From a virus, in IMG/VR virus record IMGVR_UViG_3300031671_000007, positions 1-28,424 of that record: a DNA stretch of 28,424 nt. One strand, 5' to 3'. The first letter of the stretch is position 1. Each line of letters begins with the position of its first letter. Of this stretch, positions 3,682 through 14,962 are shown piece by piece. The translations under genes and the position numbers were made by a program. The notes beneath the pieces are model-generated. The model made no database searches. It was given only the letters and a program-made list of their open reading frames with translations, and was not told the origin of the DNA.

Positions 3682-4453
3682 CTCCTGGACCCCGAAGAAG
3701 ATCGACCGCCTGCGCGCACGGTGGCTTGCCGGCGATTCGGCTAGCGTGATCGGGACCGTCGTCGGCATGTCGAAGAATGCCGTGATCGGCAAAGCCCGGC
3801 GCGTCGGACTCAAGGCACGGCCGAGCCCGATCCAGCAAGCGACCGTCTCGACTGAGGCTGTGCAGGAACTTGCCGACGCCGGCTGGACGAAAGCCGAGGC
3901 AGCACGGAAGCTCGGCGTCGGCTACAACGTCGTCTGCGGCGTCGCGACGTACCGCGGCATCAAGTTCCAGTTGCACCGGCCTACGCCGGCGGCTCAGCAA
4001 CGAGGCCGCGAGACCGCAACGGCTCGGGCGGAAGAACGCCGCGCCGAGGTCGTCCGGCTGAAGCGTCGAGGCCTGAGCAACCACGACATCGCGCAGGAAG
4101 TCCACATGCGGCGCGATACGATCGGCAAGATACTCAAGGGAGCCGGTCTCTCTGTCGCGCGACGGCCCCCAACGACGCCGGCGGTGCGGGCGCCACGCCA
4201 ACGCACCATCTCGTTCGTCTCCACCGCGCCGACGGCGCCCTCCATGCCCGCCGTCACGCGGTTTTCGTGCCTCGCGCCGGGGGAACTGCCGGAGCCGAAC
4301 GGGTGCCAATACATCGTCTCCGGCGCCAAACCATGGGCGTTCTGCGCGGAACCGGGCGCGGTCGAAATGCGGGACGGGACTCCGGTGCGGCGCCCCTGGT
4401 GCGCTGGGCATCTCGCGCGGGTGTTCTCGCGGGCGATGGCGGTGGCGGCGTGA
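3671..4453 (+). CDS. GcrA-family transcription regulator with two extra HTH units
   Basis: A 260-residue protein. Residues 5-48 (SWTPKKIDRLRARWLAGDSA, MSKNAVIGKARRVGL) are the GcrA N-terminal DNA-binding domain. Residues 200-252 carry the GcrA-type C-terminal Cys pattern: C212, C225, then WCAGH with C244 and H247. Between them are two further HTH-like units, near 62-98 (AGWTKAEAARKLGVGYNVV) and 122-160 (RRGLSNHDIAQEVHMRRDTIGKIL). Host GcrA is about 170 residues, binds sigma-70 RNA polymerase and senses GANTC methylation. This larger version may redirect host cell-cycle transcription or control phage genes (inference). AAGGAGA seven nt before ATG 3671 fixes the start. It lies directly before the DNA methyltransferase gene. 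Confidence 0.8.
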   Translation: MPNDSWTPKKIDRLRARWLAGDSASVIGTVVGMSKNAVIGKARRVGLKARPSPIQQATVSTEAVQELADAGWTKAEAARKLGVGYNVVCGVATYRGIKFQLHRPTPAAQQRGRETATARAEERRAEVVRLKRRGLSNHDIAQEVHMRRDTIGKILKGAGLSVARRPPTTPAVRAPRQRTISFVSTAPTAPSMPAVTRFSCLAPGELPEPNGCQYIVSGAKPWAFCAEPGAVEMRDGTPVRRPWCAGHLARVFSRAMAVAA

Positions 4454-5157
4454 GCAAAGCCGCGCACCTGATGATGGTCGGCGCGCGGGACGAAGGCAGC
4501 GTCAAGGGCGACGATTTCTATGCGTCGCCACCGTCCGCCGTGCATGCTCTCTGCCGAGTCGAGCGGTTCGACGGCCCGATTTGGGAGCCGGCATGCGGCG
4601 ACGGCGCGATCAGTAGGGTCCTGTCCGAGCACGGAAACGACGTAGTTTCGACCGACCTGGTCGAGAGAGGGTTCGGGCGCGGGCATATTGATTTCTTGAT
4701 GGAATACACGACGATGGCGCCGAACATTGTGACCAATCCGCCCTACAAGATCGCGGACCAGTTTGCAGCACACGCGGTCAGTCTTGCTACCAGCAAGGTC
4801 GCGTTCCTGATGCGGCTCGTCTGGCTGGCAGGCCAGCGGCGCCGGCGCATGTTCGAATCGACGCATCTCGCCAGGGTTTGGGTTTTCAGCGCGCGCATTC
4901 CCCGCATGCACCGACATGGTTACGTCGGCCCCACCACGACCAGCACGATCGACTTTGCATGGTTCGTTTGGGACCGCGTCCACATCGGCCCTCCTACTAT
5001 CGGGTGGCTCAGTTCGGCCCCGTCTCGCGACGGTGCCCACGACCTCGGGGTCTCCCCCCGAGCAGCGGCCGGCTGCCCTACCGGCTCGTTCCCTCCCTCA
5101 ACTTCCCCGTCCGGACCGCTGCATCCCCCGATGCGCGACCGGGCGGCGGCTTTTTGA
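4450..5157 (+). CDS. Phage N6-adenine DNA methyltransferase
   Basis: A 235-residue SAM-dependent methyltransferase. WEPACGDGAISRVL near residues 40-53 is the SAM-binding motif I, STDLVERGFG follows as motif II, and NPPY near residue 96 is the catalytic adenine-amino motif. A C-terminal YVGPTTTSTIDFAWFVWD block is typical of phage Dam-like enzymes. GTG at 4450 overlaps the stop of the GcrA-like gene. Likely roles are protection of phage DNA from restriction or change of methyl marks read by the neighbouring GcrA-like protein. The target site cannot be told from sequence. The last 50 residues are Pro/Ser-rich and not conserved-looking. Confidence 0.85.
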   Translation: MSKAAHLMMVGARDEGSVKGDDFYASPPSAVHALCRVERFDGPIWEPACGDGAISRVLSEHGNDVVSTDLVERGFGRGHIDFLMEYTTMAPNIVTNPPYKIADQFAAHAVSLATSKVAFLMRLVWLAGQRRRRMFESTHLARVWVFSARIPRMHRHGYVGPTTTSTIDFAWFVWDRVHIGPPTIGWLSSAPSRDGAHDLGVSPRAAAGCPTGSFPPSTSPSGPLHPPMRDRAAAF

Positions 5158-5943: not shown

Positions 5944-6857
5944 GCGCCCCCGAATGCTGGTCCTGCGCCGCCCGCGAAGGCGAGGCCCCCTTCTTCGTGC
6001 GCCTGCCGCCGGAGCACGAGACCTGGTGCATCCTCTGTGCCCTAGAGCGGGCGAGCCTGGACGTAGTTTTAGCAAGCCGGCGGCCGGGCGCCCCCTACGC
6101 GAGCGCCCGGCCGTTGGTCCTACTCGACCCGCCAGACGCGCCACATTTCGCGCGGGGGCTTGCCCTCGACAACCCGCGTCTTCGTGAACCGGAAGCCGGT
6201 AGCGCGGCGGCCCGAAGCGACCTGGGGGCCTTCGCCGTCCCCGATCGGAACGGCGAACGAGTCACCGACTTTCATCTCCCGCCAGGGGTAGCGGGCGGCA
6301 GTGTGGATCGGGATGTTCTTCTCGATCTTAATCACGGCAGCAGCCCGTGCGCGGCCAGCATCTCGCGGATGATCGTCGGGCAACTCGCGTCCCCGATGCG
6401 CTCCTGCATGTCCGCCACCAACGCATCGGCGCGGTTTGCGAACGTGGAGTGCTCAGGCCAGCCGTCGTTAATTTCCTCATCCACGTCCTCCAACAGCTTC
6501 GTGATCGCATCATCTGCGGCCCCGTCGCTCTGGGCGATCTCGTTGACCGCGCCGGCAATCACCAATCGCACCGCCTGCCGCGCATGGCGGATCGTCACAT
6601 TCGGGTTTGTCACTTTGATGGTCCCTTTCTTTGTCGCGACCGGGATTTGGTCGGTAAGGCAAGTATGGGCCGTGCGCCGAGTAATGTCAATATGTTTTCG
6701 TAGGCGCCGCTCACTGCCGCGCCGCGCCACCAGATCGCCGCCGGAAGTACTGCCGCGTTCCCGGGTGGGGCGAGCAGCCGGCGGTGCGCGCCCGGTCCTG
6801 GCCGAGTCCCGCGGGGATACGGGGACCGGGCGCGAAGGCGCCGGGGTGGGGGCATGA
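5940..6857 (+). CDS. Cys-rich small protein whose frame reads on through an antisense cassette (end uncertain)
   Basis: GTG at 5940 overlaps the previous TGA, as in the genes before it. The first 50 residues look real, with CWSCAAREGEAPFF and then WCILCALERASLDV, two CxxC pairs suggesting zinc binding. The frame has no stop until 6857, but from about 6120 it runs antisense to two convincing leftward genes and turns Arg/Ser-rich and unstructured. I infer that the natural 3' end was lost when the leftward cassette was inserted, or that only the N-terminal 50-60 residues matter. The TGA at 6855-6857 overlaps the next ATG, so readthrough translation cannot be excluded. Confidence 0.35.
   Translation: MSAPECWSCAAREGEAPFFVRLPPEHETWCILCALERASLDVVLASRRPGAPYASARPLVLLDPPDAPHFARGLALDNPRLREPEAGSAAARSDLGAFAVPDRNGERVTDFHLPPGVAGGSVDRDVLLDLNHGSSPCAASISRMIVGQLASPMRSCMSATNASARFANVECSGQPSLISSSTSSNSFVIASSAAPSLWAISLTAPAITNRTACRAWRIVTFGFVTLMVPFFVATGIWSVRQVWAVRRVMSICFRRRRSLPRRATRSPPEVLPRSRVGRAAGGARPVLAESRGDTGTGREGAGVGA
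6120..6335 (-). CDS. Small conserved phage protein (IKIEKNIPI type)
   Basis: A 71-residue protein starting with GTG at 6335, which overlaps the stop of the 93-aa gene upstream. The order IKIEKNIPI, YPWREMKVGDSFAVPI, then FTKTRVVEGK and terminal MWRVWRVE matches a family seen in many phages and prophages, whose members usually end WRVE. The biochemical function is not known to me. It is the second gene of a two-gene leftward cassette with its own promoter, convergent with the rightward early genes. Confidence 0.75.
   Translation of the reverse strand: MIKIEKNIPIHTAARYPWREMKVGDSFAVPIGDGEGPQVASGRRATGFRFTKTRVVEGKPPREMWRVWRVE
6332..6613 (-). CDS. Hypothetical helical protein of a leftward cassette
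   Basis: A 93-residue helical, acidic protein (IRHARQAVRLVIAGAVNEIA, AITKLLEDVDEEIND, ALVADMQERIG). No match is recognised. I chose GTG at 6613 because AAAGGGA lies 8 nt upstream and a good promoter lies just beyond. The same frame is open to 6970, but that part covers the promoter. Its size, lone promoter and opposite orientation fit a moron-type accessory gene, expressed independently of the lytic programme. Confidence 0.6.
   Translation of the reverse strand: MTNPNVTIRHARQAVRLVIAGAVNEIAQSDGAADDAITKLLEDVDEEINDGWPEHSTFANRADALVADMQERIGDASCPTIIREMLAAHGLLP
6637..6653. promoter_or_regulatory. Inverted repeat at the start of the leftward cassette transcript
   Basis: CGACC-N7-GGTCG (6637-6653) lies just downstream of the predicted transcription start near 6655. 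It could be an operator or a leader hairpin. Confidence 0.4.
6662..6690 (-). promoter_or_regulatory. Strong sigma-70-type promoter of the 6120-6613 cassette
   Basis: On the minus strand a consensus TTGACA (6690-6685) is followed by a 17-nt spacer and CATACT (6667-6662). It is the best -35/-10 pair seen in the window. No GACAAA-N3-TTTGTC operator overlaps it, so the immunity repressor should not silence it. Confidence 0.7.
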
Positions 6858-7063
6858 CCTGGCTCCGCAAGCGCCCCGCGCCGTCGCTCCCGAACACGCC
6901 GCCGGCCGACCCCACGAGCGCCGACCTCAAGCTGCGCCTGCACGGCGACGCGACAGGCCCGGATATCCACGTCGGATACTACAAGCGGGATGCTGCCGAC
7001 GCGCTGGCCGAGATCGAGCGGCTGGAGGGCTTGCTTGCCCGGCTGCGGGAGCGGGCGCCATGA
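6854..7063 (+). CDS. Small hypothetical protein with a C-terminal coiled-coil-like helix
   Basis: A 69-residue protein. The first 20 residues are Pro-rich, the middle (DLKLRLHGDATGPDIHVGYYKRDAADA) may be a beta hairpin, and the end (EIERLEGLLARLRE) is a leucine-heptad helix. ATG at 6854 has only a weak G-rich region upstream. Its stop overlaps the next ATG. The 164 bp between this gene and the leftward promoter (6691-6853) hold no convincing gene. Unknown function. Confidence 0.55.
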   Translation: MTWLRKRPAPSLPNTPPADPTSADLKLRLHGDATGPDIHVGYYKRDAADALAEIERLEGLLARLRERAP

Positions 7064-7398
7064 AGACCGGCCGCTTTGCCCCCGACGAAACCGCGCGGCT
7101 CATCGATCTCAGTATCGGCGGCACGTCGGTGCGCGAGATCGCCACGAAGATGGACCGTGATTACCAGGCGGTCGCGAAGAAGCGGGCGCAGTTGGGGCTA
7201 GGGCGCGCGCGGCTTGCGCTGCTGGATTGTATCCAAGAACAAATCCGGACGATGCGCAGCGATGGGGGGTCATTTCTCGAAATCGCCGCTGTGACCGGCT
7301 ACTCGCCCCCCACAGTCCGGCGTTGGTGTGCCGAAATGGGACTGCCGATCGACCGCCTGAACCGCGGGCGCCGGCCGGGCCGTGAGGTGCTGCGGTGA
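7060..7398 (+). CDS. Two-HTH DNA-binding protein
   Basis: A 112-residue protein with two helix-turn-helix-like units. The first, at residues 5-48, is APDETARLIDLSIGGTSVRE followed by IATKMDRDYQAVAKKRAQLGL, and is similar in style to GcrA or Myb-like phage regulators. The second, near 58-96, is IRTMRSDGGSFLEIAAVTGY followed by SPPTVRRWCAEMGL. The basic tail NRGRRPGREVLR may contact DNA. It starts at an ATGA overlap and ends directly against the convergent stop of the leftward XRE gene. Target unknown. It may control the replication genes downstream. Confidence 0.65.
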   Translation: MKTGRFAPDETARLIDLSIGGTSVREIATKMDRDYQAVAKKRAQLGLGRARLALLDCIQEQIRTMRSDGGSFLEIAAVTGYSPPTVRRWCAEMGLPIDRLNRGRRPGREVLR

Positions 7399-8603: not shown

Positions 8604-8815
8604 GCGCCTTCGCCTGCTTCCTCCCCCCTGACGACGTGCAGCGCCGCGCCTGGGAGTGTTGCGTCGTGTTGGGCGACGGGTTCGCGGACCGCCTTGCGCT
8701 GGTCGATCGCGTTCTGATCGAGGAGATGCAGCACGTCGGGCCGGCGGCGCTCGGATGGGCGGACTGCCGGATTGCGTTCCGGCTCTACAGCGCGACCATC
8801 GCGGAACGGGTGTGA
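8600..8815 (+). CDS. Small hypothetical protein preceding the primase
   Basis: A 71-residue protein (FLPPDDVQRRAWECCVVLGD, LVDRVLIEEMQHVGPAALGW, ADCRIAFRLYSATIAERV) with several Cys and amphipathic helices. It overlaps the remnant upstream (ATGA) and the primase-helicase downstream (TGATG), so it is translated together with the replication gene. A helper or loader role is possible, but nothing in the sequence proves it. Confidence 0.6.
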   Translation: MSAFACFLPPDDVQRRAWECCVVLGDGFADRLALVDRVLIEEMQHVGPAALGWADCRIAFRLYSATIAERV

Positions 8816-10821
8816 TGCAGATGGCGCTCGGGGATGTCGCCGCGAAGCTCGGCCTGCCGGTGTTCCCTTGCTCGGCCGATAAGCATCCCATTGTCGCGAC
8901 CGGATTCAAGGCGGCCACAACCGACCCGGACTCGATTCTCCGCGCGTTCAACGCGCCTGGCGCAGCTATGATCGGGATGCCGACCGGTAATCCTTCCGGC
9001 CTCGTCGTGATCGACGTCGATATCAAAAACGGCGCAGCCGGCATGGCGTGGCTGGACGAAAACCGCGAAGCCCTCCCGCCGACGCGGACCCACAAGACTC
9101 GTTCCGGCGGCCTGCATCTGGTGTTCGCCGCGCCCGCCGGGGTGGAAATCAGGAACAGCGCGTCCCGGGTGGCGCCTGGGGTGGATGTGCGCGGCAACGG
9201 CGGCTACGTGATCCTTCCTCCCTCGCCTGGGTATGCCCTCGCCGACCCCTCTGAGCCGGCCGAGATGCCGGGATGGCTGATCCACGCCTGCCTCCCGGCG
9301 CCCGCGCCAGCACCGGGTCCAGCCGCACCGCGCGACAGCACCACCCCGCGTTACGCCATGGTGGCGCTCGACGGTGAAGTTGCTGACGTGATGCGAGCCG
9401 GGGAAGGCACCCGCAACGATCGCCTCAACGTCGCCGCGGTCAAGCTCGGCAGCCTGGTGGGGGCTGGATTGCTCGCTCGCTCGACCGTCGAGGCGGATCT
9501 GACGCGGGCCGCGCAAACCGCCGGGCTCGACGCGAGAGAGATCGCGGCAACGATCAAGTCCGGCCTGGATTTCGGGATCGCGCATCCGCGGGATGTGCCG
9601 GCGCGGTCGAATGGCGCCCGTCACCACGCCGCACCCGAACCACCGCCGCCTGAATCCGAGGACCCGGGCCACCAGGGAGACGAGCAGGCAACCCCGGGGT
9701 CCACCGGAGAGCCCGACCCCGCTGACATCCTCCCCCTCCTCTGGTTCGGCCAGATCGAGGTCAGTCTAGATGCCCGCGATTTCGTACAGGGCACGCTCAT
9801 GGAAGAAGGGTCCGCGGTCGTCTACGGCCAGAGCAACAGCGGCAAGACGTTCTGGACCACCACCCTCGCGCTGCACGTCGCCGCCGGCCTGGAATGGCAT
9901 GGCCTGCGCGTCGAACAGGGGGGCGTCGTCTACTGCGCGCTGGAGGGCGGGATGGGCTTCCGCAACCGCGTGGCGGCATGGCGCGAGAAGATGGGCTTCG
10001 GCTCCTATCAACTCCCCTTCGCCGCTATCCCGGCGGCAATCAACCTGCTGAACCCGGCGGCCGATACCGACAAGCTCATCGCGACGGTAAAGCTCGCAGC
10101 CGCGGCAATGACCGTCCCGGTCAAGCTGATCGTGGTCGACACGCTGGCGCGCGCCCTCGGCGGCGGCAATGAAAATGCCCCCGACGACATGGGCGCCCTT
10201 GTGGCGAACATGGACCGCATCCGGGCAGAGACGCACGCCATGGTCTTGTTCGTCCACCACAGCGGCAAGGACCAGGCCAAGGGCGCGCGGGGACATTCCT
10301 CCCTGCAAGCAGCCATCGACACCGAGATCGAGGTCACGGTCGATGAGGTCGGCGAAGGCCGCACGGCGACCGTCGTCAAGCAGCGTGAAATGCGGAAGGG
10401 GCAGGTGTTCCCCTTCGCGCTACAGGTCGTCGAGCTAGGCGAAAATCGCCACGGCGAGGTGGTCACGACGTGCGTTGTTGAAGCCGCAGAACCCGGCGCC
10501 ATCCCGCAGCGTCCCGGTTCGGGCCTGACGGGCCATCCCAAGCGCGCATTCGAGCTACTGGCCGACGCCGTCGCCAGACGCGGCCAGCCGGGATACGGCG
10601 CTCCGGAAGGTGTCGTCTCGATCCCTGAAAAATGGTGGCGGGACGGTTTCTATGAACGCGCGATGCCGGGGGCGGAGGCCGACGCCAAGCGTAAGGCATT
10701 CCGCCGCGCTGCCGATGACCTTCTGAACAAGCACCTGGTCGCCATGACAGCCGGCCGGGTTTGGTTGCCAAAGGCACGCCCGGCCGATGCGCCTATCGAG
10801 GAAGCGGCCGATGCGGGATAG
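8815..10821 (+). CDS. Primase-polymerase/RepA-like helicase fusion
   Basis: A 668-residue replication protein. Residues 1-160 are a bifunctional prim-pol (archaeo-eukaryotic primase) domain, with IDVD at 66-69 (D67, D69), SGGLH with H101, and VDVRGNGGYVILPPS with D124. A linker of about 100 Pro-rich residues follows. Residues 315-520 are a RecA-fold helicase/ATPase, with Walker A GQSNSGKT at 338-345, Walker B LIVVDT near 438-443, and HHSGKD at 481-486. The C-terminal part (530-668) may bind DNA. It would unwind and prime at the phage origin, and the repeat field directly downstream is the likely origin. ATG 8815 overlaps the upstream stop; the longer frame to 8656 is a shadow of the previous gene. 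Confidence 0.9.
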   Translation: MQMALGDVAAKLGLPVFPCSADKHPIVATGFKAATTDPDSILRAFNAPGAAMIGMPTGNPSGLVVIDVDIKNGAAGMAWLDENREALPPTRTHKTRSGGLHLVFAAPAGVEIRNSASRVAPGVDVRGNGGYVILPPSPGYALADPSEPAEMPGWLIHACLPAPAPAPGPAAPRDSTTPRYAMVALDGEVADVMRAGEGTRNDRLNVAAVKLGSLVGAGLLARSTVEADLTRAAQTAGLDAREIAATIKSGLDFGIAHPRDVPARSNGARHHAAPEPPPPESEDPGHQGDEQATPGSTGEPDPADILPLLWFGQIEVSLDARDFVQGTLMEEGSAVVYGQSNSGKTFWTTTLALHVAAGLEWHGLRVEQGGVVYCALEGGMGFRNRVAAWREKMGFGSYQLPFAAIPAAINLLNPAADTDKLIATVKLAAAAMTVPVKLIVVDTLARALGGGNENAPDDMGALVANMDRIRAETHAMVLFVHHSGKDQAKGARGHSSLQAAIDTEIEVTVDEVGEGRTATVVKQREMRKGQVFPFALQVVELGENRHGEVVTTCVVEAAEPGAIPQRPGSGLTGHPKRAFELLADAVARRGQPGYGAPEGVVSIPEKWWRDGFYERAMPGAEADAKRKAFRRAADDLLNKHLVAMTAGRVWLPKARPADAPIEEAADAG

Positions 10822-10822
10822 C

Positions 10823-11149
10823 GGGACATCGGAGCGGGACACCGGGACATCGAGCGGGACACGAATGTCCCATGGACAGCAATGCTGCCCTAATCCCAAC
10901 AGGAAACGGCCCGCGAAACTGGCGGACTTCAGCCTTAAATGCGGTTCGTTCCGAGGCCGAACAGAGGGACATTCCCAAATGTCCCGCCCTGTCCCGTTCC
11001 GGAACCGAATAGAGGGACATCGAGCGGGACATCGCCGGGACATGAATGTCCCTGTGTTCGTATCCGGAACGGTGATGCGAGGAATATCAATGCATTACGC
11101 AAGTCTTGGAGCGGGACATAAATGTCCGGGTAGCGGGACATCGGGACAT
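10823..11149. repeat. GGGACAT iteron and palindrome field, candidate replication origin
   Basis: This noncoding stretch right after the primase-helicase gene carries at least ten GGGACA(T) boxes and several inverted copies. Palindromes: 10856-10871 (GGGACA-N4-TGTCCC), 10966-10985 (20 bp), 11037-11052 (GGGACAT-GA-ATGTCCC, perfect) and 11113-11128 (one mismatch). Single boxes lie at 10823, 10836, 10844, 11014, 11026, 11135 and 11143. Boxes in clusters are spaced 8-13 bp apart. Iterons beside a rep gene are the usual form of an origin in phages, satellites and plasmids. An operator array for a regulator is the alternative. Confidence 0.7.
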
Positions 11150-11161
11150 CACGACATACGC

Positions 11162-11190
11162 TTGACGCCCGGACATTTTGGGGTTAAACG
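11162..11190 (+). promoter_or_regulatory. Possible promoter toward the NusG-like and late genes
   Basis: TTGACG (11162-11167), a 17-nt spacer and TAAACG (11185-11190). The spacer contains a CGGACAT box related to the iterons. An imperfect hairpin with GGGTTAAACGC and GCGTTTACCC arms lies at 11181-11207. The -10 is weak. Confidence 0.4.
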
Positions 11191-11207
11191 CTCTATGGCG
11201 TTTACCC

Positions 11208-11474
11208 ATTGTTCGGACGGCGAGCCCCGGCGCGGCGCATGTCCAGACCGGTTTCAACGCACCCCTCAGATTCTGAAAACAGCGCCAGCTTTGCCTGCGG
11301 CACCGGGGTGTCCCCCGAGAAGCGGGAGGGGACATTTTGGGACAGCAGGGGTGCCGTATTGCCCCCCCCTCCGCTCGCCGACGCTGCGGGGGTGGGCCAT
11401 GATCAGCCGGAGTGACCCATGACCGAATCCGTGGGCGCCCATTTTGCCCCACCCACCGCACGCGGAGAAAAATC
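11208..11474 (+). other. Noncoding leader before the NusG-like gene
   Basis: No gene is supported here. It holds one more GGGACAT box (11329), repeated as GGACATTTTGGG at 11171 and 11330, and an 11-bp palindrome TCAGATTCTGA at 11266. It also has a C-run/G-run pair that can fold near 11360-11397 and a TGGGCGCCCA palindrome at 11432. A structured leader ahead of an antitermination factor could be its target site, but no known pause element is recognised. Confidence 0.4.
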
Positions 11475-12065
11475 TTGACCTATCCGCTCCGACTCGCTAA
11501 CGGCATCGGCATGCACTGCCAGGCTCCCGCCGCGATTCGCGACGAGATGGCCTGCGCTAGCTTTGCCGCCGATCCCTGGCACGTGCTGCAAACCAATCCC
11601 AACGTTGAACCTCGCGTGCTCGATGGCGTTCTCAGCGCTGGGTTCCGTGCCTACTTCCCGCAGCGCCTCGTCCGTCGCCGCCGTTACGGCCGGGTCGAGG
11701 AAGTGATCTGCGCTCTGTTCCCGACATACCTCCTGGTGGCGTTTAACGCCGCTACAGCCCCGTGGGGGGCTTTGCTGCGTCTCCGGGACGCCAAGCGCTT
11801 CCTCGGTCCCCAGGGCGCCCCTGCGGCGCTCCGTGAGGGCGAGGTGGAGCGCCTGATGGCGATGGGGCGCGAGAGCGACGGCGTGTTCGATGATGCCGCG
11901 CCTCCGTTCGAGCGGGGCCAGCAGCTCCGGGTGATGGGTGGCCCCTTCGCCGCAGTGCCAGCGATCTGCGAATGGTCGACGGCGGATCGGGTCGGCCTGC
12001 TGATGAGCATGTTCGGGCGCACGTTTCCGGTCGAGATGGGCCGGGCTGATGTGGAGAAGTTCTGA
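11475..12065 (+). CDS. NusG/RfaH-like transcription elongation factor
   Basis: A 196-residue protein. Residues 35-125 (WHVLQTNPNVEPRVLDGVL, GFRAYFPQRLVRRRRYGRVE, ALFPTYLLVAF) form the NGN domain that clamps RNA polymerase. Residues near 150-175 (FERGQQLRVMGGPFAAVPAI) form the KOW domain. As a NusG paralogue it most likely works as a specialised processivity factor. It is the first gene of the rightward block leading into the packaging and head genes, which suits late antitermination. TTG at 11475 follows GGAGA by about 7 nt. ATG at 11511 is the alternative. Family sure; target operon inferred. Confidence 0.85.
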   Translation: MTYPLRLANGIGMHCQAPAAIRDEMACASFAADPWHVLQTNPNVEPRVLDGVLSAGFRAYFPQRLVRRRRYGRVEEVICALFPTYLLVAFNAATAPWGALLRLRDAKRFLGPQGAPAALREGEVERLMAMGRESDGVFDDAAPPFERGQQLRVMGGPFAAVPAICEWSTADRVGLLMSMFGRTFPVEMGRADVEKF

Positions 12066-13139: not shown

Positions 13140-13628
13140 GTGTCTGACGATCCCGCCCCGAAAGCCGGTCGCCCTTCCGTCTACAAGCCGGAATACGCCG
13201 AGCAGGCGCGCAAGCTGTGCCTCCTGCTCGGCGCAACCGACAAGGACCTCGCCAAGTTTTTCGAGGTGGACGAAAAGACGATCGTCCGCTGGCGGCACGC
13301 GCGCGAGGATTTCGGCGCGGCGGTCGAGCAGGGCAAGATGGCGGCGGATGCGAACGTGGCGGAACGGCTCTATGTCCGCGCCGTGGGATACGAGCATGAG
13401 GCCGTCAAGATCTTCATGCCCGCGGGCGCCAAGGCGCCGGTCTATGCCCCGTACACTGAGCGCTTTCCTCCGGATGTGCCGGCGCAGTCGTTGTGGCTGC
13501 GCAATCGCCGGCCGGCTGAATGGCGGGATCGGGTCGAGCACACCGGTGACAAGGGCGGTCCGATCGTGAGCGAGGTCCGCTATCGCTGGGCGGACGAGAC
13601 CAAGGACGAACCGCCGAAGCCCGAATGA
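13140..13628 (+). CDS. terS: Terminase small subunit
   Basis: A 162-residue DNA-recognition subunit of the packaging motor. Residues 10-60 (GRPSVYKPEYAEQARKLCLL, GATDKDLAKFFEVDEKTIVR) form the N-terminal HTH that binds the packaging site. Residues 60-110 (EQGKMAADANVAERLYVRAV) form the oligomerisation helix. The end WLRNRRPAEWRDRVEHTG is typical of this family. GTG at 13140 begins 4 nt after the previous TGA. Its stop overlaps the large subunit's ATG, the usual terS-terL coupling. Confidence 0.85.
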   Translation: MSDDPAPKAGRPSVYKPEYAEQARKLCLLLGATDKDLAKFFEVDEKTIVRWRHAREDFGAAVEQGKMAADANVAERLYVRAVGYEHEAVKIFMPAGAKAPVYAPYTERFPPDVPAQSLWLRNRRPAEWRDRVEHTGDKGGPIVSEVRYRWADETKDEPPKPE

Positions 13629-14962
13629 CCGCGCAGATTGTCACGCTGCCGTTCTGCCCGCGGCCCTGGCAGGTGCCACTGATCGAGTGCCGGGCGCAGT
13701 CTATCGTTGCCGTGGTGCATCGCCGAGCGGGAAAATCCACCGCGTTTGTATGGCGCGGTCTCCGCAAGGCCCTGACGCACACCCGGAGCCATATCCCCGC
13801 CCATCGTCGCAACCTGAAGGCTGACCCTCCCCGCGTCATCCATGTGCTGCCGGCGCAGGTTTCTTGGAAGCGCACCGGCCTCTGGGACAAAGTTGCGCGG
13901 GCCGCTGCGGAAATCCCCGGCGCGGTGGTGATGAAGTCGGAAATGCGCGTCATCCTCCCGAATGGCGGAGTCTACCAATGCGGCGGGATGGACAAGCCTG
14001 ACTCCTGGCGCGGCGGCTTGGCGGATGAGGTAATCGAAGACGAGGCCGACGATGTGATTGCCTCCGGGCTCGACATGGTGGTCGAGCCGATGCTGGCCGA
14101 CTACGCCGGGTGCCGGGTGAAGATCGGCACGCCGAAGGGCAACGGGCGGCTCGCGGCGGCTTACCATAAGTGCGATCCAGCCTCGCGGTTTCTGCTGCCG
14201 TGGCAGGCGACGGGCGCCCTGGACGATGCTCAGATCGCGTCCCTGCGCGGCACCCTCGACGAAGAGGAATTCTCCCAGGAATTGGAATGTTCGTTTACCG
14301 CACCGAATAGCGGGTCCTACTTCGGCAAATGGCTCGACGCCGCGATCGCCGAAGACCGCGTCTGCCGCGTGCTCTACGACCCCAAGCTGCCCGTTTTCAC
14401 GGCGTGGGACCTTGGGATGGACGACAGCACGGCGATCTGGTGGTTCCAACGCTCGCCAGGCGGCGAATGGCGGTTCCTCGAATACTACGAGGATAGCGGC
14501 CCGGGCCTCGACACTTACGCCAAGCTACTGCTTCAGAAGCCGTACATCTATGGCCGCCATTTCCTGCCGCATGACGTCCAGGTCCGCGAGTTAACGTTCG
14601 GGGGCCAGTCGCGGCGCCTGTATCTCGCGGGCCTCGGCATTAAGCCGATCCATGTCGTGCCAGCGGCGAACCCGGCGGATCGTGTGGCGGCAACGCGCAA
14701 CATCCTCCCGCGGGCTTGGTTCGACGTGACGGGCTGCGCCGAGGGACTGAAGAAACTGCGGGCCTATCGGCGCCAGTGGAATGAGCACATGGGCGTCTGG
14801 AAGGCCGAGCCACTACACGACGGGTCTTCTCATTGCGCGGATGCGATTGGCACTGGTGTCCAGGGGTCTCAGGACCCCGATGCGGCACCAGTCGCGATCG
14901 CCCCCTATGTCGCCACGAAGCTACATACGACACCGTCCCGTCCCGGCCAGTGGATGGGCTGA
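13625..14962 (+). CDS. terL: Terminase large subunit
   Basis: A 445-residue ATPase/nuclease that pumps and cuts phage DNA. Walker A is HRRAGKS at 32-38, after the PRPWQ-type adenine-binding segment. Walker B is the acidic stretch at 132-143 (LADEVIEDEADD), preceded by the usual MDKPDSWRGG. Coupling motif IGTPKGNGR follows at 167-175. The RNase-H-like nuclease begins FTAWDLGMDDSTA (D262, D266, D267), and a second metal site lies near HDGSSHCADAI at the C-terminus. Full length for the family. It starts in an ATGA overlap with terS. There is no headful versus cos evidence. Confidence 0.95.
   Translation: MTAQIVTLPFCPRPWQVPLIECRAQSIVAVVHRRAGKSTAFVWRGLRKALTHTRSHIPAHRRNLKADPPRVIHVLPAQVSWKRTGLWDKVARAAAEIPGAVVMKSEMRVILPNGGVYQCGGMDKPDSWRGGLADEVIEDEADDVIASGLDMVVEPMLADYAGCRVKIGTPKGNGRLAAAYHKCDPASRFLLPWQATGALDDAQIASLRGTLDEEEFSQELECSFTAPNSGSYFGKWLDAAIAEDRVCRVLYDPKLPVFTAWDLGMDDSTAIWWFQRSPGGEWRFLEYYEDSGPGLDTYAKLLLQKPYIYGRHFLPHDVQVRELTFGGQSRRLYLAGLGIKPIHVVPAANPADRVAATRNILPRAWFDVTGCAEGLKKLRAYRRQWNEHMGVWKAEPLHDGSSHCADAIGTGVQGSQDPDAAPVAIAPYVATKLHTTPSRPGQWMG

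Follow-up and report, generated by a model that had tools for sequence, protein, structure and literature searches.

Origins served by an initiator that loads itself are already known: PMC7581432 describes the design for SaPI Rep and SCCmec Cch2, and variants of it occur in pRN1 (PMC4234260), P4 alpha and RSF1010. According to the account in PMC7581432, which cites Ubeda et al. 2007, the C-terminal domain of SaPI Rep and Cch2 recognises short iterons lying directly downstream of the gene for the protein itself. The oriV of RSF1010 combines iterons with two primase-specific hairpins, ssiA and ssiB (summarised in PMC4234260). For pRN1 ORF904 and the phage BIP-1 type an essential stem-loop just 3' of the gene has been described, the stem sequence of which is not conserved, and the binding motif of ORF904 is given there as 'not yet identified' (PMC4234260). 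The alpha protein of P4 unites primase, helicase and a C-terminal origin-binding domain in one protein and acts on repeats (PMC4234260).

Here we analysed a stretch of 28,424 nucleotides from the virus record IMGVR_UViG_3300031671_000007 (hereafter the window), which carries P22-type portal, terminase-like, scaffold, major head and head-closure genes. The window contains 29 copies of the hexamer GGGACA where 13.5 are expected, and none of 100 shuffles reached 29, and GGGACAT occurs 15 times against 3.6 expected. Of these 29 copies 18 fall in 10823-11344, where a uniform spread would place about 0.3, and this array starts one base past the stop (10821) of a gene encoding a Prim-Pol/helicase. 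An earlier note on this DNA had described such boxes beside the replication gene together with four inverted pairs and a further box at 11329, all of which we could confirm, with the pairs located at 10856-10871, 10966-10985, 11037-11052 and 11113-11128. A CGGACAT variant, which the note had placed at 11162, is also present but lies at 11170-11176, as position 11162 belongs to the preceding TTGACG. Additional boxes were found at 10990 (minus strand), 11309 (minus) and 11339 (plus), and a repeat of 26-28 bp is present in three copies, at 10947, at 10995 and inverted at 11046-11072, each embedding a box. The features of the locus are as follows:

8656..10821, plus strand: Prim-Pol, RepA-type (AAA_25) helicase and C-terminal winged helix, proposed origin-binding initiator (Pfam, Foldseek)
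10531..10764, plus strand: winged-helix domain, aa 626-703, as predicted by AlphaFold (blocks mostly with pLDDT >90)
10690..10695, plus strand: codons of R679 and K680, the recognition-helix residues tracking the box triplet (top of ~310 columns)
10823..11344, no strand: box array with 18 GGGACA and CGGACA variants, proposed origin and initiator-binding region (from the counts and the homologous position in relatives)
10823..10871, no strand: sub-array A, four direct boxes and one inverted pair (10856-10871)
10966..11052, no strand: sub-array B, boxes and two inverted pairs (10966-10985, 11037-11052)
11113..11176, no strand: sub-array C, inverted pair 11113-11128, boxes at 11135 and 11143 and CGGACAT at 11170, facing the hairpin
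11181..11207, no strand: hairpin GGGTTAAACGC-TCTATG-GCGTTTACCC with a 6-nt loop, candidate counterpart of the central hairpin of relatives (position, apex)
11239..11244, minus strand: degenerate inward-facing box ATGTCC, beyond the hairpin
11309..11344, no strand: sub-array D, boxes at 11309 (minus), 11329 (plus) and 11339 (plus)

Sub-array B sits within a large inverted repeat (10994-11020 and 11046-11072), and the DNA fold of 10990-11080 has a z-score of -5.5. With 520 bp the array of the window is atypical among its relatives, where about 170 bp are usual. A nucleotide search of the array region against phage records gave no match. The bare palindrome GGGACATNNATGTCCC was also searched in viral contigs, but its matches were set aside and given no weight.

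Three further observations concern the window outside the array. A NusG/RfaH-like protein is encoded at 11412-12065, directly past the array and ahead of the packaging genes, and could function in processive antitermination of the late genes; no relatives of this protein were found in viral contigs or phage records. A gene for a GcrA-like cell-cycle regulator (PF07750, 3605-4453) overlaps an open reading frame (4267-5157) resembling a phage DNA methyltransferase (phrog_799). In Alphaproteobacteria GcrA works with a DNA methyltransferase, and the two reading frames are possibly a viral counterpart of this pair. At the edge of the record, positions 1-223 consist of a 57-bp tandem unit (3.9 copies, 93% matches) that possibly encodes a repetitive protein segment, since the unit length is a multiple of three.

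The proposed initiator comprises 721 amino acids as called, with its true start uncertain, and shows Pfam matches to PF09250 (aa 62-207, E 1.6e-36) and PF13481 (aa 353-541, E 1.8e-38). RSF1010 RepA was the best structural match of the helicase model (1olo, Foldseek E 2.8e-10), occupying ranks 1-3 with TM-scores by target of 0.65-0.70, and the helicase fold is thus RecA-like and not SF3. An AlphaFold run on aa 329-721 with 79 sequences (mean pLDDT 89) predicted a C-terminal winged helix composed of a helix (626-642), a strand, a second helix (658-668), a recognition helix (675-691) and a hairpin wing (696-703), with residues 679 and 680 located near the start of the recognition helix; modelled alone, this domain reached a pLDDT of 84. 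Fold searches with the winged helix matched those of CRP/CAP and Orc/Cdc6 at a generic level, and therefore we do not claim any specific DNA-binding family. The likeness to Orc/Cdc6 is one of shared fold only.

Relatives were collected by Prim-Pol/helicase scans of viral contigs and prokaryotic genomes, which yielded several hundred loci. Once duplicates with identical C-termini had been removed, the set comprised 252 proteins, and for 247 the available DNA extended 250 bp or more past the stop. In 163 of these 247 a hexamer is repeated within 600 bp past the stop above all 30 shuffles, and in 133 an NNN-ACA array exceeds all 100 shuffles, while 84 show no significant repeated hexamer and 72 are positive in neither test, these being partly distant or truncated proteins. 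The triplet in front of the ACA core differs among the relatives and 20 different triplets were seen, namely GGG (50), CGG (25), GTG (13), GTA (8), GTC (7), GCA (6) and fourteen others including CCG and GAG. In one case (L455) the triplet was first scored as CAC, and inspection revealed GTCACA boxes overlapped by CACACA. For a set of 83 representatives sharing less than 80% identity, box density in the first 200 bp past the stop is 7.7 per 200 bp compared to about 0.1 elsewhere in the same loci, and the first box follows at a median of 4 bp past the stop; the tandem spacing is mostly 8-12 bp. As the density peaks right past the stop, the array belongs to the 3' end of the gene, whatever gene follows. 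The more distant RepA/primase of Caulobacter phage RW, which has a different C-terminus, shows no array in the 63-bp gap past its gene, indicating that the array accompanies this winged helix and not every related helicase.

Some relatives have arrays in the same place that do not follow the NNN-ACA pattern (L213, L225, L331 and L464; L036, L037 and L062), with boxes such as TTCCGCA and TACCGCA, and it may be that these branches differ in the core as well. By eye, the reading frame directly past the array in L440, L446, L428 and L436 starts like a terminase large subunit, and in this clade the origin and the packaging genes may be neighbours.

The arrays of the relatives share a geometry. Boxes on either side of a central point face inward, with a score of 0.82 compared to 0.69 for shuffled orientations, and the opposite arrangement (0.58) is below chance. 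Between the boxes a hairpin with a CT[A/T] apex was found in 65 of 78 arrays, compared to 5 of 78 in each of two control stretches, the gene end and a stretch one kilobase further on. Its stems vary freely (CCCCC, ATATATC, ACACCTC, ACACCC and others). That the stems vary yet remain paired, while the apex is kept, suggests that the hairpin matters in its folded or extruded form, by analogy with the ssi sites of RSF1010 as PMC4234260 summarises them. The hairpin of the window at 11181-11207, which has a 6-nt loop, was missed by the strict hairpin scan, and its assignment is based on position and apex. It folds better than shuffled sequences on both strands (z -2.9 and -3.3), its loop carries CTATGG as in L426, L427 and L433, and the CGGACAT at 11170 stands where, in relatives, the inward-facing boxes end ahead of the central hairpin. 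Judged from these sequence features it is probably a divergent counterpart of that hairpin.

The earlier note had proposed a search of relatives for co-variation of the box with the C-terminal domain of the protein, and this search turned out positive. Each triplet base was tested against all variable columns of the helicase core and the C-terminus; as these columns share one history, they control for one another. Among about 310 columns residue 679 ranked first for base 1 and residue 680 ranked first for bases 2 and 3, at redundancy levels of 95, 80 and 65%. Within the 83 representatives K679 goes along with G at base 1 in 22 of 23 cases and Q679 with C in 9 of 9, while R679 is ambiguous (G in 25, C in 14 and A in 1). 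All 55 representatives with K or R at position 680 have G at base 3, and 51 of the 55 have G at base 2 too; of the 10 with Q680, 9 have T at base 2 and 9 have G at base 3, and T, V, A, M and E at this position never occur together with G at base 3. In strata of helicase identity residue 680 reaches an odds ratio of 11.5 with base 2 and of 30 with base 3, compared to a median of about 1.1. Fisher tests on grouped residues gave p-values of about 1e-7 to 1e-15, with the groups picked after viewing the tables.

Shared ancestry was addressed with a tree of the helicase core. Changes at 679 coincide with changes of base 1 on 17 branches (p 2e-7), the first of 286 columns with the next at p 1.4e-3, and changes at 680 coincide with changes of base 2 on 14 branches (p 7.6e-8), again ranking first with the next at 1.1e-4. 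For base 3 residue 680 comes no higher than seventh (p 0.016), which would be expected if G is specified by K, R and Q alike. When full triplets were predicted by nearest neighbour from relatives less than 60% identical in the helicase, the helix residues gave the right triplet in 57% of cases, the helicase in 21% and the majority triplet in 25%.

Natural swaps point in the same direction. L309 and L318 share 94% identity in the helicase core but only 21% in the winged helix and have GGGACA and CCGACA boxes, respectively; the similarity of their DNA ends at the winged helix and restarts beyond most of the array. L018 and L019 are 99% identical in the helicase and 48% in the winged helix, with GCAACA and GTAACA boxes. 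Within one clade the helix sequence ..AARQAF.. is found with GTG, ..AARTAF.. with GTC, ..SARVAF.. with GTT and ..AARKAF.. with GGG. The rule was also applied to genomes outside the set from which it had been built, which contain seven independent arrays, leaving base 1 open where residue 679 is R or a residue not listed. Five of the seven triplets were predicted correctly, including that of L498 with 33% identity, while L495 was right at two of three bases and L536 was wrong. Two isolated Rhizobium phages, 16-3 and RHph_X2_25, encode putative initiators about 31% identical to the protein of the window; both carry ..KRQRF.. in the helix and GTGACA boxes as predicted by the code, 14 copies in 16-3 and 16 in RHph_X2_25. 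In two isolated Roseobacter phages, CRP-823 and CRP-831, the arrays consist of other boxes but the hairpin, AACCCTTTAGGGTT, is the same. In a comparison of CRP-823, CRP-831 and CRP-811 (L556, L557 and L559) gene order is nearly the same, the box sets differ (CTACAA, GTATAA) and so do the helix residues (SNPDSAY, SNPRSSY).

From these data it appears likely that two adjacent residues of the recognition helix dictate the triplet before a near-invariant ACA, and that winged helix and array are swapped as a cassette on a constant helicase-primase with a constant hairpin apex. The code would then read as follows: at position 679 K specifies G and Q specifies C, and at position 680 K or R specifies GG, Q specifies TG, T mostly TC, V either TA or TT, and A specifies CA. 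If this reading is true, origin specificity and replicon compatibility could be read, predicted and swapped from sequence in a large family of phages, prophages and related replicons.

The proposal of a candidate origin made in the earlier note is supported and much strengthened, by the family-wide array fixed at the 3' end of the gene and by the positive co-variation. The array is very probably the replication origin of the phage, bound by its own helicase-primase as initiator. As the co-varying protein is a helicase and primase, and the array follows the gene encoding it and is centred on a hairpin, an origin with a self-loading initiator is the most economical reading. A rise of the GC3 skew of same-strand genes across the array at 22 of 31 loci (p 0.01, obtained with crude ORF picking in high-GC DNA) hints weakly at divergent forks.

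Among the alternatives, the one surviving best regards the boxes as operators for the gene itself or the following late genes, bound by the Prim-Pol or another regulator and without any role in replication. The boxes do lie between an early gene and the NusG-like and packaging genes, but the genes downstream vary among relatives and a NusG-like gene was seen in only five other fetched loci, so that it is not part of the system. Likewise TTGACG at 11162 precedes CGGACAT, but a scan of 10700-11600 for sigma-70-like promoters found none, and the idea that the same boxes also gate late transcription thus gained no support. Several initiators are known to autoregulate too, and autoregulation of this initiator via the boxes is possible. 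Against operators without a role in replication, the arrays lie past the gene and not ahead of its promoter, the window's central hairpin lacks a terminator T-run, and the co-varying residues belong to the helicase-primase and not to a regulator. We therefore regard pure operators as unlikely. Equally bound by the Prim-Pol, the array might instead be a partition, incompatibility or copy-control locus or a pac site, and not the start of synthesis. Plasmid iteron arrays can act as copy-control loci away from the start site and packaging genes follow within ~3 kb (terminase-like, 13625-14962), but a binding partner with helicase and primase domains and a central hairpin with a conserved apex, which is what a priming site needs, make this very unlikely. 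In addition, the SaPI origins as described in PMC7581432 and the essential stem-loop of pRN1 as described in PMC4234260 occupy the same place relative to the initiator gene. That the boxes serve another DNA-binding protein of the phage, for which the HTH protein (6784-7398) and the GcrA-like protein would be at hand, and are associated with the Prim-Pol by mere linkage is hardly credible, as the signal is confined to the columns of the recognition helix and absent from hundreds of linked columns in the helicase, box swaps accompany winged-helix swaps on near-identical helicases, and the coupling is kept in loci of distant genomes.

Returning to the array as an origin with its own initiator, we propose the following mechanism. 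The C-terminal winged helix would bind boxes of the form NNN-ACA-t, with residue 679 reading base 1 of the triplet and residue 680 reading bases 2 and 3. Several bound subunits would then load the RepA-type hexameric helicase, and the unwinding would expose the hairpin or its flank, where the Prim-Pol domain could lay the first primer. The computation established the box array with its fixed place, the co-variation, the inward-facing arrangement and the hairpin. From these we infer origin activity, physical binding, helicase loading and hairpin priming, and we consider the complete explanation, consisting of an origin, a self-initiator, a box-reading winged helix and hairpin priming, to be highly likely.

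For most environmental phages, to our knowledge, the sequence does not reveal the origin. In this family origin, initiator and pairing residues can be read from the genomes, which gives predicted origins for more than 100 phages and prophages including the classic Rhizobium phage 16-3. The evolution of origin specificity also becomes testable, as single residue changes should shift a replicon to a new box set.

Compared to the known systems, the locus resembles SaPI Rep and Cch2 in having an array of short repeats directly 3' of the gene for an initiator helicase and, judged from the co-variation and the domain swaps, probably a repeat-specific C-terminal domain. It differs in the helicase family, as here an AEP Prim-Pol is fused to a helicase of the RSF1010 RepA type (AAA_25). 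The phage initiator would therefore work like SaPI Rep without being a member of the SaPI Rep family. In the literature searched we found no description of a residue-to-base code for SaPI Rep or Cch2.

With RSF1010 (IncQ) the initiator shares the RepA-type helicase, as indicated by the structural match of the model, and iterons and a hairpin are both seen in the family, although the hairpin of the window is divergent. RSF1010 uses a separate RepA helicase, RepB' primase and RepC iteron binder, whereas here all are found in one chain, the iterons probably being read by the helicase's own C-terminal winged helix next to one central hairpin with a CT[A/T] apex. The phage protein may thus be seen as a single-chain counterpart of the three-protein system of RSF1010. 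Like pRN1 ORF904 it joins an AEP primase to a helicase and a C-terminal winged helix within a single protein, but pRN1 has an SF3 helicase and a 100-bp stem-loop without iterons, in contrast to the RecA-like helicase, iterons and short hairpin found here, and our boxes supply the kind of binding motif that is missing for this related initiator. P4 alpha can be likened by its domain description, but has a TOPRIM primase and a different helicase in place of the AEP Prim-Pol.

Boxes or a residue-to-base code of this family, or an origin of phage 16-3, were not described in the literature searched, with most subscription journals outside its scope. Co-variation of Rep proteins and iterons as such is known elsewhere, for example in geminiviruses. 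The closest isolated example is p101 of Rhizobium phage 16-3, a relative with GTGACA boxes and a CTTTAG-apex hairpin past its gene, which is followed by a gap of 357 bp, and with the predicted helix residues, differing from the window in its triplet (GTG instead of GGG). New in comparison to all of these systems are the proposed code connecting winged helix and box in this family and the combination of an AEP Prim-Pol, an RSF1010-RepA-type helicase and a putative iteron-reading winged helix in one chain.
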